Position numbers and translations under genes: made by a program. Shown one piece after another: positions 50,974 through 60,731 of a stretch of DNA of 64,000 nucleotides (position 1 is the stretch's first letter; the number at the start of each line of letters is the position of its first letter). The DNA lies in NCBI RefSeq assembly GCF_900105685.1, contig NZ_LT629781.1, positions 2,666,001-2,730,000 on the forward strand, read 5' to 3'. The notes beneath the pieces were generated by a model, which saw only the letters and a list, made by a program, of their open reading frames with translations, had not been told where the DNA came from and made no database searches. This DNA comes from Verrucomicrobium sp. GAS474 (GTDB taxonomy: Bacteria > Verrucomicrobiota > Verrucomicrobiia > Methylacidiphilales > GAS474).

Positions 50974-52439
50974 GGCGTCGGGGTGGGGATCGGGCTGCCC
51001 GCCGTGGCAGGTGCGGCTGCGGCAGGTTTGGCCTTGGGAAGGCCGAGGCGGGTGAGGAGGTCGCTCTCGGGATTGTCGAGGCGGCCCCGGAGGGTGAAGG
51101 GAACGAAGGCGTCGCCGTTCTCTTCCTTGGTGAGCTTCGCGGCGACGGCGGCGGGGAGCCGGGCGACGGTTTCGGGGTGGAAGTGGAGGCGGCAGTCGAG
51201 GGCGAGGGTGCCGTCGAGGCCGGCGGCCCCGGCCCCGGTGAGGGTCCAGGCGGCGGCGGCGAGGGAGAAGTCGGAGAGGAGGAGGCGGCCCTCGGAAAGG
51301 GTGAGGGTGCCGTGGCAGTCGGTGAAGTCGGGCTGGGAGAGGTCTTTGAGGTTGAGGGCGGTGGCGAGGTCCTCGACGAAGCCGACGCGGATGAGCTGGC
51401 CGTCCCGGATGGTGAAGCCGGCGGAGGCGGCGACCTGGGAGAGTTCCCGCGAGGGCCCGCGCCCGGAGAGGGTGAGGGAGAGGGAGCCGGAGAGGAGGTC
51501 GGGGCGGCCTGCCGATTTCAGGATTTCGCTGAGTTCGATGCCGGTGCTTTGGAACTCGAAATCGCAGGGGAGGCCGGGGGCGTCGGTCTTCAGCACCAGC
51601 TTGCCGGTCCATTGGCCGTGGTAGGCTGTGCCGAGAAGCTTCGTGAGGCTGATGGTGGCCTGGGAGAAGGTGTAGCCGCCCTGGAGGTTGGCCGAGGTGA
51701 ATTTCCCGAAGCGGAGGGCGGTGGCGGAGAACTGGCCGAAGGCGTTCAGGGAGTCCTGGCGGGGCTCCTGGTCGCCGTTGCCGCCGCGGGAGATCCGGCC
51801 TCCGTGCTCGATGCCGTCGAGGAGGACGGCGTCCCGGCCCTCGCGGTCGAGGATGCGGAGGCGGCCTCCGGTGATGGAGAGGGAGGAGAGGGTGAGGGGC
51901 CACGGCTGGGGGGCGGCGGCCGGTTCCGGGGTGTTTTCCTTTTCGGTCCCGGAAGAGGCGGGGGCGGGGGTGGCCTGGCGCGGGGTGTGGAGGGGGAGGA
52001 TGAGGCGGCCTTCGGCGTCTTCGGGGAGGGCGAGGACGGGGTGGTCGAAGGAGAGCTTCGGCAGGACGACGCGGCCGTCGAGGAGGTCGAGGGGGGAGTA
52101 GGCGACCTCGACACGGGGGGCCTCCAGCAGGGGGGGGTGGATCGGGGGCTGGCTGGGAGTGGGGCCCGGGTCCCGGACCTCGGGGGCGAGGCCGCCCTCG
52201 CCGGGGATGCGGAAATCGAGGATGGTGGTGCCGCGCAGGATGTTGATGTGTTCCATCCCCTTCCACAGGACGGGGGTGCCGAGGGCCCCGGTGGCCAGGG
52301 TGCGGAGGCGGGCCTGGGTGCCGGAAAGGCCAAGATAAAAATTGAGGGAAAGCGTCAGGATTGCTACGACTGCGAGGATGCCTAAGGCAATTCGCAGGGC
52401 GTATTTGAATAATCCGGCAACCATTTCCGAGTAAGGCAT
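50970..52439 (-). CDS. AsmA-like envelope protein
   Basis: This is a 489-residue protein anchored by one N-terminal helix (residues 10-37, YALRIALGILAVVAILTLSL) with a large periplasmic beta-rich part. Features typical of AsmA/TamB-like proteins are ILRGTTILDFRI, SLSITGGRLRILDREG and GTLTLSEGRLLLSDFSL. A Pro/Ala-rich insert lies near residue 145-165. These proteins affect lipid transport to the outer membrane. The start MPYSEMV at 52439 is preferred over much longer upstream frames. It is coupled to rsmD. Confidence 0.8.
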   Translation of the reverse strand: MPYSEMVAGLFKYALRIALGILAVVAILTLSLNFYLGLSGTQARLRTLATGALGTPVLWKGMEHINILRGTTILDFRIPGEGGLAPEVRDPGPTPSQPPIHPPLLEAPRVEVAYSPLDLLDGRVVLPKLSFDHPVLALPEDAEGRLILPLHTPRQATPAPASSGTEKENTPEPAAAPQPWPLTLSSLSITGGRLRILDREGRDAVLLDGIEHGGRISRGGNGDQEPRQDSLNAFGQFSATALRFGKFTSANLQGGYTFSQATISLTKLLGTAYHGQWTGKLVLKTDAPGLPCDFEFQSTGIELSEILKSAGRPDLLSGSLSLTLSGRGPSRELSQVAASAGFTIRDGQLIRVGFVEDLATALNLKDLSQPDFTDCHGTLTLSEGRLLLSDFSLAAAAWTLTGAGAAGLDGTLALDCRLHFHPETVARLPAAVAAKLTKEENGDAFVPFTLRGRLDNPESDLLTRLGLPKAKPAAAAPATAGSPIPTPTP

Positions 52440-52541
52440 AAGACGCCCCCTGTCCGCAATCCAAATGGAACTCCCCATGTCGATCCCATCGCAACGCTTT
52501 TTCCGTCCGGGCGGCATCACGGGGCAATCCCCCCTCCTTTC

Positions 52542-53429
52542 ATGAATCGGACCTGCATCATCCTCAATCCGGCGGCCCGGAGCGAGCGGGCGAAGCGCCT
52601 GAAGAGCCAGATCGAGGCCCTGGCCGAAGGGGTGACGATCAAGTACACCGAAGGTCCCGGCGATGCCGAGGCGAAGGCCGAGCGGGCCGTCGAGCAGGGC
52701 TATACGACGATCGTCGCCGCCGGGGGAGATGGGACGATCAATGAGGTGGTGAACGGGCTGACCGGCTTCGCCGAGAACGAGGGGAAGGGGAAGCCCGCCG
52801 ACGTGACCCTCGGTATCCTGCCGATCGGGACGGTGAACGTCTTTTCGATGGAGCTCGGCATCCCTTCCCAGCTGGAGAAGGCGTGGGAGGTCATCACGAA
52901 CGGGAAGACCCGGCTGATCGACCTGGCCCGGGCCAACGACCACCGGTTCGTCCAGTTGGCCGGGGTCGGTTTCGACGCGCAGATCGTGGCGCGGACGGAG
53001 TGGAAGTCGAAGAAGCGCCTCGGCCCGCTCAGCTACGTCCTGACGGGGGCGCAGATCGTCACCGAGAAGCCGCCGAAGATCGTCGTCCGCACTGAGGAAG
53101 GGAAGACCTACAAGGGCTCCTTCGTCCTGATCGGCAACGGGCGCTTCTACGGCGGTCCCTTCTCGATCTTCAAGGAGGCGAAGCTCGACGACGGCCTCCT
53201 CGACATCTGCATCTTCGAGCAGATGAATCCGCTGGCCCTCGTCTGGTACCTCCAGGGCATCCTCACGGGGAAGCACACCACCTTCCGCGATGTCCGGTAT
53301 TTCAAGAGCCGCTCTATCCGCGTCGAGTCGGAGGAGCGGGTCCCCGTCGAGGTCGACGGGGAGCTCCTCGGCTTCCTCCCGTGCGAGTTCACCGTCTCGC
53401 CCCGCGCCCTGCGGGTGCTGGCCCCCTGA
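52542..53429 (+). CDS. Diacylglycerol/lipid kinase family protein
   Basis: This is a 295-residue protein of the DagK/YegS type. ILNPAARSERA opens it, the nucleotide site is VAAGGDGTINEVVNGL, LPIGTVNVFSMELGIP follows, and the C-terminal domain has VLIGNGRFYGGPFSIFKEAKLDDGLLDI. It probably phosphorylates a membrane lipid such as diacylglycerol. It is divergent from the AsmA-like gene (102-base gap) and is followed after 26 bases by a histidine kinase gene. Confidence 0.92.
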   Translation: MNRTCIILNPAARSERAKRLKSQIEALAEGVTIKYTEGPGDAEAKAERAVEQGYTTIVAAGGDGTINEVVNGLTGFAENEGKGKPADVTLGILPIGTVNVFSMELGIPSQLEKAWEVITNGKTRLIDLARANDHRFVQLAGVGFDAQIVARTEWKSKKRLGPLSYVLTGAQIVTEKPPKIVVRTEEGKTYKGSFVLIGNGRFYGGPFSIFKEAKLDDGLLDICIFEQMNPLALVWYLQGILTGKHTTFRDVRYFKSRSIRVESEERVPVEVDGELLGFLPCEFTVSPRALRVLAP

Positions 53430-53455
53430 AGGGACGAAAGGCTGAATCCCTCTCG

Positions 53456-55174
53456 ATGAAGACAAAGCCCCGGCCTTCGGTCCCGTCCCCCTCGATCATT
53501 CCCGTTCTCTCTCCGGCCTCCGGGCTGAACCTCGGCCTCTTCCTCGATCCGAAGCGGGCGATCAGCCACTTCCTCGGGATCGCGATCGAGAAGAGCGGGG
53601 CGACGTGCGGCTCCTTCATCCTCATCAACCCGAACACCGGCCTCCTCGACATCGAGGCGAGCCGGGGCATGCCGCTCCGCATCCGCAAGACGAAGCTCCA
53701 CCTCGGCGAGGGCGTCACCGGATGGGTCGCCACGACGGGGAAGGCGATGCGGATCCCCGACGTCCGTCAGGAACGGAAATATGTCGCCGTCCTGCCGAAG
53801 GTGATGTCGGAACTCGCCGTGCCGGTCGAATACCAGGGGCAGGTCCTGGGGGTGCTCAACCTCGACAGCGTCCACCTCGGCCACTTCACCGAGGAGCATG
53901 AGCGCGCGATGCTCGCCCTCGCCGCCGAGGCCGCCGAGTGGCTGAAATACGGCTGGGAATTGACCGCCCTCCGGGTGAAGGATCAGCAGCTGAACGCCCT
54001 CGTCCAGATGGGGCGCTCCATCGTCTCGATGACGGGGCTCGAGGAGACCCTCTCCGGCATCGTCGCGAACGGGGCCGGGCTGATGAAGACCCGGGTCTGC
54101 TCCCTCATGCTCCTGAGCCAGGACAAGAAGGAGCTGGGGCTGAAGGCGACCTTCGGCGCGGGCGTCCGTTACCAGAACCGGCCCCCGCTGCGGGTCGACG
54201 AATCGCTCGTCGGGGCCGTGGTGAAGCGGAAGAAGCCGTGCGTGGTCTTCAACGTCGAGACTGATCCCCGCTATCACGAGGTGGCGATGGCGCGGGAGGA
54301 AGGGCTGGTCTCGATGCTCTCCGTGCCGCTGATCTTCGCCGCCGAGGTGATCGGCGTCCTCAATGTCTACACCGACGAGCTCCACCGGTTTTCCAACCAG
54401 GAAATCAAGCTCCTCCAGACCCTGGCCGACCTCTCCGCCGTGGCGATCGGGCGGACGCGCCTCCTGACCCGCGTCGTCGACACCGAGGAAAGCCTCCGGC
54501 AGAGCGAGCGGCTTTCGGCCCTCGGCCTCCTGGCCGCCGAGGTCGCGCACGAGATCCGCAATCCGCTGACGGTGATGCAGATGCTCTTCCACAGCCTCGT
54601 CACCTCGACGCCGATGAACGGGGCGGCGGCGGAGGACGCCCGGATCATCGAGGAGAAGATGAGGCACATGAACCGGATCGTCGACCAGATCCTCTCCCTG
54701 GTCCGCTCCGCCGAGCCGATCAAGGAGCCCGTCGACCTCGCCCAGATGATCGACGACATCATCCTCCTCGTCCGCCACAAGCTCCACCGGCAGGGGATCG
54801 AGATCCGGCGGGACGCCGACGAGGCGCTCCCCCCGGCGAAGGTCGACCGGGCGCAGATCGAGCAGGCCATCCTGAACCTGGTCCTCAACGCCGTCGGCGC
54901 GATGCCGGAGGGCGGGGCGCTCTCGATCGGGACCTCGATCGACGAGGTCGAGGGAGCTTCCTATTTCGTCCTGACCGTGCGGGACAACGGCGTCGGCATG
55001 ACGGCGACGCAGATCGACAACCTCTTCGCGCCGTTCCTCACGACGAAGCAGCACGGCACCGGCATCGGCCTCGCCATCGTCGCCCGCATCATGGAGAACC
55101 ACAGCGGTCGGATCGAGGTCGAGTCGAAGCCGAAGCGCGGGACGCGGTTCCGGCTGCTGTTGCCGGTGGGGTAG
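53456..55174 (+). CDS. Soluble GAF-domain sensor histidine kinase
   Basis: This is a 572-residue kinase with no membrane segment. Two GAF sensor domains (about 35-185 and 200-345) precede a HisKA domain with H box AAEVAHEIRNPLTVM (about 362) and an HATPase with N box QAILNLVLNAVGAMPEGG, G1 DNGVGM and G2 GTGIGLAIV. It autophosphorylates on the H-box His in response to a cytoplasmic ligand or redox cue. The response regulator partner is not adjacent; the lone receiver at 5873 is a candidate only by absence of others. The ATG at 53456 fits the first domain. Confidence 0.92.
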   Translation: MKTKPRPSVPSPSIIPVLSPASGLNLGLFLDPKRAISHFLGIAIEKSGATCGSFILINPNTGLLDIEASRGMPLRIRKTKLHLGEGVTGWVATTGKAMRIPDVRQERKYVAVLPKVMSELAVPVEYQGQVLGVLNLDSVHLGHFTEEHERAMLALAAEAAEWLKYGWELTALRVKDQQLNALVQMGRSIVSMTGLEETLSGIVANGAGLMKTRVCSLMLLSQDKKELGLKATFGAGVRYQNRPPLRVDESLVGAVVKRKKPCVVFNVETDPRYHEVAMAREEGLVSMLSVPLIFAAEVIGVLNVYTDELHRFSNQEIKLLQTLADLSAVAIGRTRLLTRVVDTEESLRQSERLSALGLLAAEVAHEIRNPLTVMQMLFHSLVTSTPMNGAAAEDARIIEEKMRHMNRIVDQILSLVRSAEPIKEPVDLAQMIDDIILLVRHKLHRQGIEIRRDADEALPPAKVDRAQIEQAILNLVLNAVGAMPEGGALSIGTSIDEVEGASYFVLTVRDNGVGMTATQIDNLFAPFLTTKQHGTGIGLAIVARIMENHSGRIEVESKPKRGTRFRLLLPVG

Positions 55175-55198
55175 GGCTGGGGGGAAGGAAGGCGGCGG

Positions 55199-55930
55199 TT
55201 ACTTCGCCGCCGGGGCCGTATCGCCCGGGACCGCCGTGTCGGAGAAGAACTTCTCCAGCTGCGGATCCTTCGGGATGCCGAGATCGAGCGCCTTCTGGTA
55301 GTGCTTCCGCGCGAGTTCCCGCGAGGGGGGCTTCTGCGTGGCGTAGATGACGGCGAGGTTGAAGTGGGCGTCGCCGAGGGTCGGGTCGATCTCGACGGCC
55401 TTGCGGAGCTGTTTCTCGGCCGCTTCCTGCCAGCCCTTCTGAGAGCAGGCAATGCCGAGGTAGTTCCGGGTGCGGGCGTCGTTGGGATCGAGGGTGGTCG
55501 CCTTCGTGAGCATGTCGATCGCCTCGTCGAAGCGGTTCTGCTGGTAGAAGACGATGCCGAGGATCGAGTGGGAGAAGGCGTCGTTCGGGTTGAGGCGGAT
55601 CGCCTCCTTGAGGGCGCGCTCGGCCTCGGGATACCGCTGCTGCTGGAAGCGGACGACGCCGAGGTTCGACCAGGCGTAGAGGCTGTCGGGATACTTCTGG
55701 ACGATCTTCGAGTAGGCCTCGGCGGCGGCGTCGAACTGGCCGCGGGAGAAGGCGTCCGAGGCCTGCTGGGCGATGGGCCGCATGTCGTCGGGGACGCGGG
55801 CCTTCGCGGCGACGTCGGCGGCGGCGGCCGCCGCCGTGCCGGAATCGGCGGGCGCGGAGGAGGCCGCCGGGGCGGCAGGGGCGGCCGAGGTGTTCGGGAG
55901 GTCCTTGCGGGCCTCGAAGTTCTGCCCCAT
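55199..55930 (-). CDS. TPR-repeat protein, C-terminal part of a gene split by an in-frame amber codon
   Basis: This is a 243-residue frame from ATG 55930. From about residue 50 it holds at least four tetratricopeptide repeats (AYSKIVQKYPDSLYAWSNLG, ALKEAIRLNPNDAFSHSILG, MLTKATTLDPNDARTRNYLG, QLRKAVEIDPTLGDAHFNLA). The frame is in fact open upstream to the TAG at 56108-56110, and the 59 codons between (KSEILRQQLDILASPIIALNPEERALL) are protein-like. It looks like the second half of the coiled-coil protein encoded at 56108-57070. Without readthrough it has no export signal. Confidence 0.8.
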   Translation of the reverse strand: MGQNFEARKDLPNTSAAPAAPAASSAPADSGTAAAAAADVAAKARVPDDMRPIAQQASDAFSRGQFDAAAEAYSKIVQKYPDSLYAWSNLGVVRFQQQRYPEAERALKEAIRLNPNDAFSHSILGIVFYQQNRFDEAIDMLTKATTLDPNDARTRNYLGIACSQKGWQEAAEKQLRKAVEIDPTLGDAHFNLAVIYATQKPPSRELARKHYQKALDLGIPKDPQLEKFFSDTAVPGDTAPAAK

Positions 55931-56107
55931 CGCGGGGGTCGCCGGATCGGCATCGGCAGCGGGGGCCGCGGTCTGGGAGGGGACGACGGCGGCGGTGTTG
56001 ATGCGGAGGAGGGCCCGTTCCTCGGGGTTGAGGGCGATGATGGGGGAGGCGAGGATGTCGAGCTGCTGGCGGAGGATCTCCGACTTGATCTTGAGGTTGC
56101 CGATCTC

Positions 56108-57070
56108 CTAGTCGGCGAGGCGCTTCGCGGCGTCGCGGCGGGCCTGTTCCTGGAGTTGGCGGGTGACGATGCCGCGCAGGATCTCGTTTTCCTTGCGGCT
56201 GGAGTCGTTGTTGGCGAGCTGCCCGGCCTGCTGGTCGGCGAGGGTGAGCTTCTGCTGGGCGGTCTCGAGCTGGGCCTTGAGGTCGTTCGTCGTGGTGCGG
56301 AAGGCCTGGTTCTCCGCCTGGAGGTAGGAGAGCTGGTCCTGGACCTTCTTCAGCTGGTCCTTGAGGAGGGGGACGGAGTTGCTGCTGTCGCCGCCGCTCT
56401 GGAGGGTTTTGACCCGTTCCTCGGCGTCGGCGAGCTTCGTCTTGAGCGACTTGTTTTCCTCGAGGATCGTCGCCATCCGCTCTTCGAGGTTGGACGACTT
56501 CACGTTGGAGAGTTCGCGCTCGGCGGCGTCGAGGCGCTGGCGGAGCTGGGTCGCCTGGGTGAGGGCGTCGTTGAGCTGCTTCTTCGTGTCGGCCAGCTCC
56601 CCTTCGAGGGAGCTGATCCGCTGCTTGAGGGCCGTGGTCTCCGAGGAGATGGCTCCTCCCGAAGTGACCGGAGCGGGGGCGACGGGAGCGGGCGGCACAT
56701 CCGCCGTGACCGTGACCGGGGGATTGGCCGCCGGTTTCGGCGTCGGGGTGAGGGTGGGGGAGGGATTGCTATCGGCCTTGTCGGCGAGCTGGGCGATCTT
56801 GTCCCGGGCGAATTTGATGCGGAAGTTGACGATGCTCGGCTCCCAGTCGGGATAATTCTTCTTCAGGTCGGAAAGCTGGTCGGCAACCTCGGTGTAGCGG
56901 CTCCGGGAGCTCGCGTATTGGCCCTTCTGCTCCATCCGGTCGGCGTCCTGGAGGAGGAAGTAGATTTTCAGGAATTGATCCTGGGGCGTCAGCGTCGCCG
57001 CATGGCCAACCTCAAAGCTGCCGAAGAAGGTGAAGAGAGCCAGCAGGACGATGAGGATGCGTTTGGCCAT
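56108..57070 (-). CDS. Secreted coiled-coil protein ending at an in-frame amber codon (N-terminal half of split gene)
   Basis: This is a 320-residue product from ATG 57070 (MAKRILIVLLALFTFFG, a signal peptide cleaved near GHA). A helical domain (TPQDQFLKIYFLLQDADRMEQKGQY) is followed by a Pro/Thr/Val-rich linker (about 100-145) and a long coiled coil (about 155-310). It stops at TAG 56110-56108 in the same frame as the TPR segment just downstream. The two halves together would make one exported coiled-coil/TPR protein. The break could be a mutation, a sequencing error or recoding. Confidence 0.8.
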   Translation of the reverse strand: MAKRILIVLLALFTFFGSFEVGHAATLTPQDQFLKIYFLLQDADRMEQKGQYASSRSRYTEVADQLSDLKKNYPDWEPSIVNFRIKFARDKIAQLADKADSNPSPTLTPTPKPAANPPVTVTADVPPAPVAPAPVTSGGAISSETTALKQRISSLEGELADTKKQLNDALTQATQLRQRLDAAERELSNVKSSNLEERMATILEENKSLKTKLADAEERVKTLQSGGDSSNSVPLLKDQLKKVQDQLSYLQAENQAFRTTTNDLKAQLETAQQKLTLADQQAGQLANNDSSRKENEILRGIVTRQLQEQARRDAAKRLAD

Positions 57071-57149
57071 AAGAGACGGATAGGTCTGGTCGGGTTTATA
57101 ACTTATAACTAAGTAAAAAGTCAAACTCCCTGGGAATATTTTCACCAAT

Positions 57150-57192
57150 GAAAAATTGCCTTCCTCCCGGCGAGGTGGGGGAAGGCTTTTTC
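57150..57192. terminator. Terminator between purH and the coiled-coil gene
   Basis: GCCTTCC...GGAAGGC (57158-57186) is flanked by AAAAATT and TTTTTC. It lies 25 bases beyond the purH stop (minus strand). Confidence 0.75.
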
Positions 57193-57216
57193 ATCGGTGG
57201 ATGGAGGGAAGCTCGA

Positions 57217-58761
<1,545 letters not shown>

Positions 58762-58903
58762 CGGATGACTTTGAGGAAAACGGAGGAGATTTCAACCCCT
58801 AACCCGACGCGGGCGGCTCAAAAAACCCAGGGCGGCCATTCTTGGGATGCCGCTTAACCTACTCTGGACATTCTCCCTCGGGTTCCTCTACCGTCGGAGC
58901 TTC

Positions 58904-60199
58904 ATGGAGATCGGCGAACATCGTTTTTTCAAGGGATTCCCGCAGGAGGCCATCGACCTTCTCCGTAAAGAAGCGGACATCATCGACCTCGCTCCGAGCC
59001 AGCTCCTTTTCAGCGAGGGTGACGCGCCCGACGGCGTCTACCTCGTCCTCGACGGCGAAATCAACATCGTGAAGGCCGGTGCCGACGGCTCCATGCGGAC
59101 CCTGGCCACGATGTCGCCCGATGCGGCCTTCGGTGAGATGGGCGTCTTCGACCAGGCCCCGCGCAGCGCCGGGGCGCAGGCGAGCGGCGCGGGTGGCGTC
59201 CGTCTGGCCCGCATCCCCGGCGAGCTCCTGATGAACACCCTCGCCGTCGCCTCCGGGCAGACGGTCGTCAACTTCATCCAGCCGATCTTCGACCGCCTCC
59301 GCCAGTCGAACTCAAAGTACATGAACGACATCGTCCGCAAGGAAAAGATGTCCCTCATCGGCGAGATGGCGAACACGATCATCCACGACATCCGCGGCCC
59401 CTTCCAGTCGGTCCAGCTCGGCTCGGAGCTCCTGCTCGAGATGCACGGCGACGACGCGACGAAGGACATCTGCCGGATGATCGGCCTCCAGATCAACCGC
59501 GTCGCGGTGATGGCCGAGGAACTCCTCGAGTTCTCCCGCGGCACCTCGAAGCTGACGATGGACGTCGTCGACCTCCACGAGCTGATCGAGGAATTCCAGT
59601 TCCTCAACAAGGACCTCTTCCGCGACAAACAGATCCCGATCACCTTCCACTCCGCCTCGGTCTTCATCGAGGCCGACCGCCACAAGCTGATGCGGACGGT
59701 CCAGAACATCGTGAACAACGCCCTCGACGCTCTCAAGGGGAAGCCCGGGGTGGTGATCCAGGTGGTGACGGGCGAATTCGACGGCATGGCCCAGATCCGG
59801 ATCGCCGACAACGGCCCCGGCATCCCGGAGCAGATCCGCGCCCGTCTCTTCGAGCCGTTCGTGACCCATGGCAAGAAGAACGGCACCGGCCTCGGCATGG
59901 CGATCGTGAAGAACGTGGTCGAAGCCCACAAGGGGAAGATCTTCTTCGAGACCGAGACGAACGTCGGGACGACCTTCTACATCCAGGTTCCCGTCCAGCC
60001 GATCCCGGAAGGGAAGGCCCTCGCCGTTCCGTCCGAGACGCCGTTGGTGAAGACCTACGGCGAGCCGGTCGCCGCCCCGGTGGCCCCGATCGCGGCGGTC
60101 TCAGCGGTCGCCCCGCTTGCGCCGCTCTCTCCCGTTTCGCCGATTTCCCCGTTGAGCCCCGTCTCTCCGATCTCGCCCCTGCAGCCGCCGACGGCTTAA
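58904..60199 (+). CDS. Cyclic-nucleotide-binding-domain histidine kinase
   Basis: This is a 431-residue soluble kinase. A CRP-like cNMP-binding domain (about 5-120, LLFSEGDAPDGVYLVLDGEINIV; AFGEMGVFD) is joined to a HisKA-like domain with IIHDIRGPFQSV and an HATPase (IVNNALDAL, DNGPGIP, GTGLGMAIVKNVVEAHKG). A low-complexity tail (about 380-431) repeats PLSPVSPIS. The sensor pocket RSAGAQASG differs from classical RSA-T cAMP sites, so the ligand is uncertain. The start MEIGEHR at 58904 is preferred over 58847, which adds a hydrophobic leader. Confidence 0.9.
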   Translation: MEIGEHRFFKGFPQEAIDLLRKEADIIDLAPSQLLFSEGDAPDGVYLVLDGEINIVKAGADGSMRTLATMSPDAAFGEMGVFDQAPRSAGAQASGAGGVRLARIPGELLMNTLAVASGQTVVNFIQPIFDRLRQSNSKYMNDIVRKEKMSLIGEMANTIIHDIRGPFQSVQLGSELLLEMHGDDATKDICRMIGLQINRVAVMAEELLEFSRGTSKLTMDVVDLHELIEEFQFLNKDLFRDKQIPITFHSASVFIEADRHKLMRTVQNIVNNALDALKGKPGVVIQVVTGEFDGMAQIRIADNGPGIPEQIRARLFEPFVTHGKKNGTGLGMAIVKNVVEAHKGKIFFETETNVGTTFYIQVPVQPIPEGKALAVPSETPLVKTYGEPVAAPVAPIAAVSAVAPLAPLSPVSPISPLSPVSPISPLQPPTA

Positions 60200-60273
60200 T
60201 TCCCCTCCCGGGATTAGCTCCCTTTCAAGGCACGACCATGCCTGGAGGGCGGACTGGGACGAAAAGAGGGAAG

Positions 60274-60297
60274 GGGAGGAGAATCCTCCCTTGATTT
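60274..60297 (+). terminator. Probable terminator after the cNMP-histidine kinase gene
   Basis: GGGAGGA-GAA-TCCTCCC is followed by TTGATTTTTG, 75 bases past the stop and directly before tRNA-Ala. Confidence 0.6.
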
Positions 60298-60305
60298 TTG
60301 CTTGG

Positions 60306-60378
60306 TGGAGATAAGGGGGTTCGAACCCCTGACCTTCTCATTGCGAACGAGACGCTCTACCAACTGAGCTATATCCCC
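60306..60378 (-). tRNA. tRNA-Ala (CGC anticodon)
   Basis: The acceptor GGGGATA pairs with TATCTCC and has the alanine-defining G3-U70 pair. The anticodon loop TTCGCAA between TCTCG and TGAGA gives CGC. The T arm is AGGGGTTCGAACCCCC. CCA is not encoded. Confidence 0.95.
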
Positions 60379-60392
60379 AAAGCAAAATAAGG

Positions 60393-60467
60393 TGGAGCCA
60401 CTTGTCGGATTTGAACCGACGACCCACGCTTTACGAAAGCGTTGCTCTACCCCTGAGCTAAAGCGGC
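60393..60467 (-). tRNA. tRNA-Thr (CGU anticodon), CCA encoded
   Basis: The acceptor GCCGCTT pairs with AAGTGGC. The anticodon loop TTCGTAA between ACGCT and AGCGT gives CGU. The T arm is GTCGGTTCAAATCCGAC. Unlike the other tRNAs here, the 3' CCA is encoded (60393-60395). Confidence 0.95.
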
Positions 60468-60731
60468 ATCGTTGATTACCAACGTTCTTGCACCTTCTTG
60501 TTTGAACTTGTTTTAGGTTTTTCTTGGCAACAACTTGGCAACAAACCAACTCGTCGTTTCGATCACCTTCACAAGTCTAACCCCCACTTTTTTAAGGTGG
60601 GACGAAGAGCGTATTCAAGGGGCAGGGGGCATGCAATTCAAAAATGCGGTTTGAGATGAACTCCGCGAGGCAAACCTAACGGAAATAGGAATGCCACTGG
60701 TATTGTGGTCGGGATAGGCTACAAAAGGGCA
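60468..60731. other. Spacer at the start of the low-GC block
   Basis: These 264 bases lie between tRNA-Thr and the first gene of the right-hand block. They contain a tandem TTGGCAACAAC/TTGGCAACAAA (about 60523-60544) and a CCCCAC..TTTTTTAA..GTGGG stem (about 60583-60601). No gene or integrase remnant is recognisable. GC drops clearly from here to about 62.6 kb. Confidence 0.5.

Follow-up and report, generated by a model that had tools for sequence, protein, structure and literature searches.

An in-frame amber codon in a conserved coiled-coil/TPR gene of Verrucomicrobium sp. GAS474, probably a recent nonsense mutation

In the window analysed here, a stretch of 64,000 nucleotides from the genome of Verrucomicrobium sp. 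GAS474 (contig NZ_LT629781.1, positions 2,666,001 to 2,730,000), a conserved coiled-coil/TPR gene on the minus strand is interrupted once, in frame, by an amber codon. The interruption is probably a recent nonsense mutation, in a verrucomicrobial gene that is conserved, present in one copy, and predicted to encode an exported coiled-coil/TPR protein. A single substitution would have turned an acidic codon into TAG within the conserved block that joins the coiled coil to the TPR region; release factor 1 would then terminate translation at codon 320, and the cell would export a coiled-coil fragment, about 296 residues long, that lacks the TPR domain, while the TPR half would either not be made or not be placed. 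The TPR half is probably lost because it has no signal peptide and the first ATG, GTG, or TTG lies 177 bases on. The resulting allele would be a young null or a partial loss, arisen in nature or in culture, and it resembles the young pseudogenes or null alleles that amber mutations create in bacterial isolates, in that it involves one substitution, an ordinary stop, a single genome, and no other damage.

The layout of the intact protein suggests an envelope scaffold, in which the coiled coil would oligomerise and the TPR region would hold a partner. The loss of the gene is somewhat unexpected, given its wide conservation across the order and the failure to find a full-length paralogue in the genome. 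For users of the isolate, 56108-57070 and 55199-55930 are to be treated as one broken gene rather than two, and the isolate is expected to miss the TPR half of a protein kept by its relatives, which is of little import beyond the strain. Should the mutation be real, it would make the isolate a naturally occurring partial knock-out for a conserved verrucomicrobial envelope protein.

Layout of the interrupted frame

Minus-strand positions 57070..55199 translate as a single frame of 624 codons with one internal TAG and a terminal TAA (Table 1). The first half, of 320 codons, opens with a signal-like N-terminus, followed by a helical domain and a Pro/Ala-rich linker, and ends in a coiled coil, and the second half, of 302 codons after the TAG, contains a clear TPR array; the translation around the stop reads LAD-stop-EIGN. 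From the TAG to the next in-frame ATG (55930) there are 59 codons, which score +30.8 in frame, versus -53 and -42 in the other frames, according to a self-trained codon model, and which can be aligned to homologues. The signal-like N-terminus, recognised by eye in the translation, is confined to the first half. An earlier sequence-only reading had described a frame with an in-frame TAG at 56110-56108, protein-like codons from the TAG up to the first later ATG, and a signal peptide on the first half only, and its description holds on all of these points, the signal peptide being judged by eye.

Table 1. Features of the interrupted coiled-coil/TPR gene, in window coordinates
Feature	Positions	Strand	Basis
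Whole conserved coiled-coil/TPR gene, with its one in-frame interruption	55199..57070	-	Translation and homologues
In-frame TAG, codon 321; Glu/Asp codon in 58/58 homologues	56108..56110	-	Translation and alignment
Signal-peptide-like N-terminus, residues 1-24	56999..57070	-	By eye; putative cleavage site
Coiled-coil region, about residues 141-320	56111..56650	-	Weak coiled-coil matches, all below curated cut-offs
Conserved block spanning the stop, about residues 301-345	56036..56170	-	Homologue comparison
302 open codons 3' of the TAG	55202..56107	-	Translation, codon model
TPR array, second-half residues about 114-283	55259..55768	-	Domain match
First in-frame ATG/GTG/TTG past the TAG, 177 bases on	55928..55930	-	Sequence
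Promoter-like TTGACT-18-TATAAA	57095..57124	-	By eye; also present before the G002 gene

The promoter scan, whose rule accepts only a second hexamer ending in T, reported none upstream of the gene. A search of positions 52000-60500 against Rfam returned two tRNA genes and no other family.

Homologues across the junction

Each half was searched in 60 genomes, 59 of which are other members of the genus or order. A homologue was found in 58 of these 59; none was found in G033, which is 77% complete. The junction-crossing frame was extracted for all 58 homologues, and every one of them is open across the junction, with Glu at the TAG position in 38 and Asp in 20 (GAG in 19, GAA in 19, GAT in 12, and GAC in 8). 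Both same-genus genomes carry GAG at this site, one substitution from TAG, and the site lies inside a strongly conserved block. Because all 58 homologues are open here with an acidic codon, the two halves are read as one conserved gene divided by an amber codon, and not as two genes, in agreement with the sequence-only reading. A split at the TAG position, that is, two proteins with the same break, was sought in the 58 homologues and found in none of them, and a conserved split gene is thereby rejected.

The intact orthologue of the congener G001 (G001:C9, L017) has an identical domain order, with 58% identity in the first half and 67% in the second, and differs in being open across the site. 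Its neighbourhood is also the same as here, with a histidine kinase gene adjacent and purH further off. In Pfam, the sole matches of this orthologue are TPR models, and no named function was found. A contig search with the TPR half returned only eight distant relatives, and a search of the PDB with profile A1 gave only TPR proteins among the best 60 of 192 matches, with the match in the TPR part; in the strain's own genome, the other hits of profile A1 cover generic TPR positions only. A class-wide profile search of 141 genomes, including the strain's own, produced some match in 136, and among the matches listed an internal stop occurs only here (one TAG) and in a partial match in G081 (one TGA).

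Two of the homologues are irregular away from the site. The G029 homologue (L080, G029:C51) is interrupted upstream of the junction, giving frames of 157 and 364 codons, and is open at the site. The G002 homologue is likewise open at the site, and stops matching about 60 residues past the junction, in the tail of its contig. The end of that contig (L016:1-250, G002:C136) cuts the homologue off with about 300 bases unlike the gene, and for its last 250 bases there is no other match in G002; it is either a contig-edge artefact or an insertion.

Beyond the TAG, the second half contains no stop or frameshift, and near-invariant sites are changed at 1 of 43 positions in the second half versus 0 of 17 in the first. 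Relative-rate counts are mixed and of little power, with a Fisher p of 0.043 against the 13 near outgroups and of 1.0 against all 56. Maximum-likelihood branch lengths for the strain are 0.290 in the first half and 0.269 in the second, a ratio of 0.93, which is higher than the second-to-first ratio of the whole tree (0.68; 5.470 versus 8.082) yet within the spread of the other genomes. The dN/dS values against G001 are 0.51 and 0.41 for the first and second halves, respectively; against G002, dN/dS is 0.70 over the 57 shared post-stop codons, which enter a variable linker, versus 0.25 in the first half. A long decay of the second half was not seen in these tests, which have little power, and the data are compatible with a recent change that they do not date. 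An undecayed second half would also be predicted by a base error or by functional readthrough.

Assembly quality and a possible base error

If the TAG were a consensus mistake, the gene of the strain would be intact. A base error of this kind is unlikely, and what speaks for it is the confinement of the stop to one genome, the undamaged state of the rest of the gene, and one relative-rate count without relaxation of the second half. Against it stands the quality of the sequence, which was obtained on a PacBio RS at 178x and assembled with HGAP into one contig, according to the genome paper of Verrucomicrobium sp. GAS474; the genome is here, too, a single contig, with a length of 3,763,444. A 12.5-kb block is found at both contig ends (G000:C1:1-12536 and 3744596-3757135; L174, L175), and a comparison of the two copies shows 16 single-base indels, every one of them within the first 3.1 kb of the start copy, and no substitutions. 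The visible discrepancies of the assembly are thus indels, and the TAG needs a substitution, which favours a real mutation over a base error without proving it: the block may be either an overlap left untrimmed or a real repeat, the same reads may underlie both copies, and a comparison over 12.5 kb bounds the substitution rate only loosely.

Comparison with the congener also argues against a base error. Among 53 G001 genes matched at 40% identity or more in 224 kb of the strain's own genome, the present gene is the only one interrupted, and systematic gene interruption in the assembly is therefore rejected. The reverse comparison, of own genes versus the congener, flagged 6 of 49. Four of the six were inspected and proved to be two stops near the natural end, one stop before the conserved start, and one stop-free partial match; the remaining two comprise one match reaching the end of the fetched stretch and one covering half of the query.

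Decoding of TAG and fate of the second half

In this genome, TAG serves as an ordinary stop. It ends 13 of the 41 genes predicted in the window, the present gene included, and, over 224 kb of the strain's own genome, 44 of 140 predicted genes, compared with 45 of 140 in 200 kb of the congener G001. The gene purK, the example that the sequence-only reading gave in calling TAG a normal stop elsewhere, runs in from before the window, and its TAG, at 608-610, coincides with the end of its family profiles or lies near it; a glycogen phosphorylase gene is also ended by TAG at or near the end of its family profile. Release factor 1 (prfA) is present, with 468 bits versus a cut-off of 423, and no anticodon CTA occurs among the 47 tRNA matches typed by ARAGORN, from which a very divergent tRNA could escape; the genome paper reports 47 tRNAs as well. 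With release factor 1 present, no CTA tRNA among the 47, and TAG in ordinary use, a change of the genetic code or a suppressor tRNA is rejected.

The same evidence weighs against functional amber readthrough, by which a short coiled-coil form would be accompanied by a scarce long TPR form. Both halves are intact and coding-like, as readthrough would have it. However, besides the presence of release factor 1 and the failure to find a UAG-reading tRNA, the 100-base stretch that follows the TAG shows no better folding than shuffled sequences (z 0.32), and the stop recurs in no relative, nor was any recoding signal found to be kept among them, the site being a sense codon in 58 of 58. In Belinky et al. 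2021 (PMC7918605), in-frame stops in bacterial genes are described as common and mostly short-lived, and readthrough is argued for many of them, so that the source lends readthrough some support and, through the short life of most such stops, also counts against it. The cases in that source are like the present one in having an in-frame stop (here TAG) in an otherwise conserved gene, and differ in that their stops are shared by at least two species, whereas the present stop occurs in one genome of the 59 with the gene. The present case fits the short-lived class, and functional readthrough is unneeded. Readthrough is accordingly judged very unlikely. Were it to reach a useful level, the gene would be a new dosage switch, with the exported coiled-coil form of an envelope scaffold in abundance and its partner-binding TPR form scarce, an outcome that is hardly to be expected. 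The sequence-only reading had left three causes side by side, and the best fit among them is a recent nonsense mutation, with a base error less likely and readthrough disfavoured by the tRNAs, release factor 1, RNA structure, and the relatives.

Fission into two working proteins, with the TPR half restarted at 55930 or later, is highly improbable: an in-frame ATG at 55930 is followed by the complete TPR array, but the restarted half would have no signal peptide and hence never meet the exported half, the conserved residues directly after the stop would be discarded, no relative is split at the TAG position, and the start, far past the TAG, has no purine-rich site ahead of it, which is a weak objection given that the gene's own start has none either.

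The end block mentioned above has features of its own. The end-block match does not extend into the last 6.3 kb of the contig, and the block is either a true direct repeat or a circular overlap that was left untrimmed and carries a structural difference. Owing to this duplication, one tRNA gene of the 47 (Ala, TGC, 34.9 bits) is counted twice. Within the block, self-matches shifted in 27-base steps (L174:6952-7481 and L175:8107-8636) suggest a putative tandem array of 27-base units.
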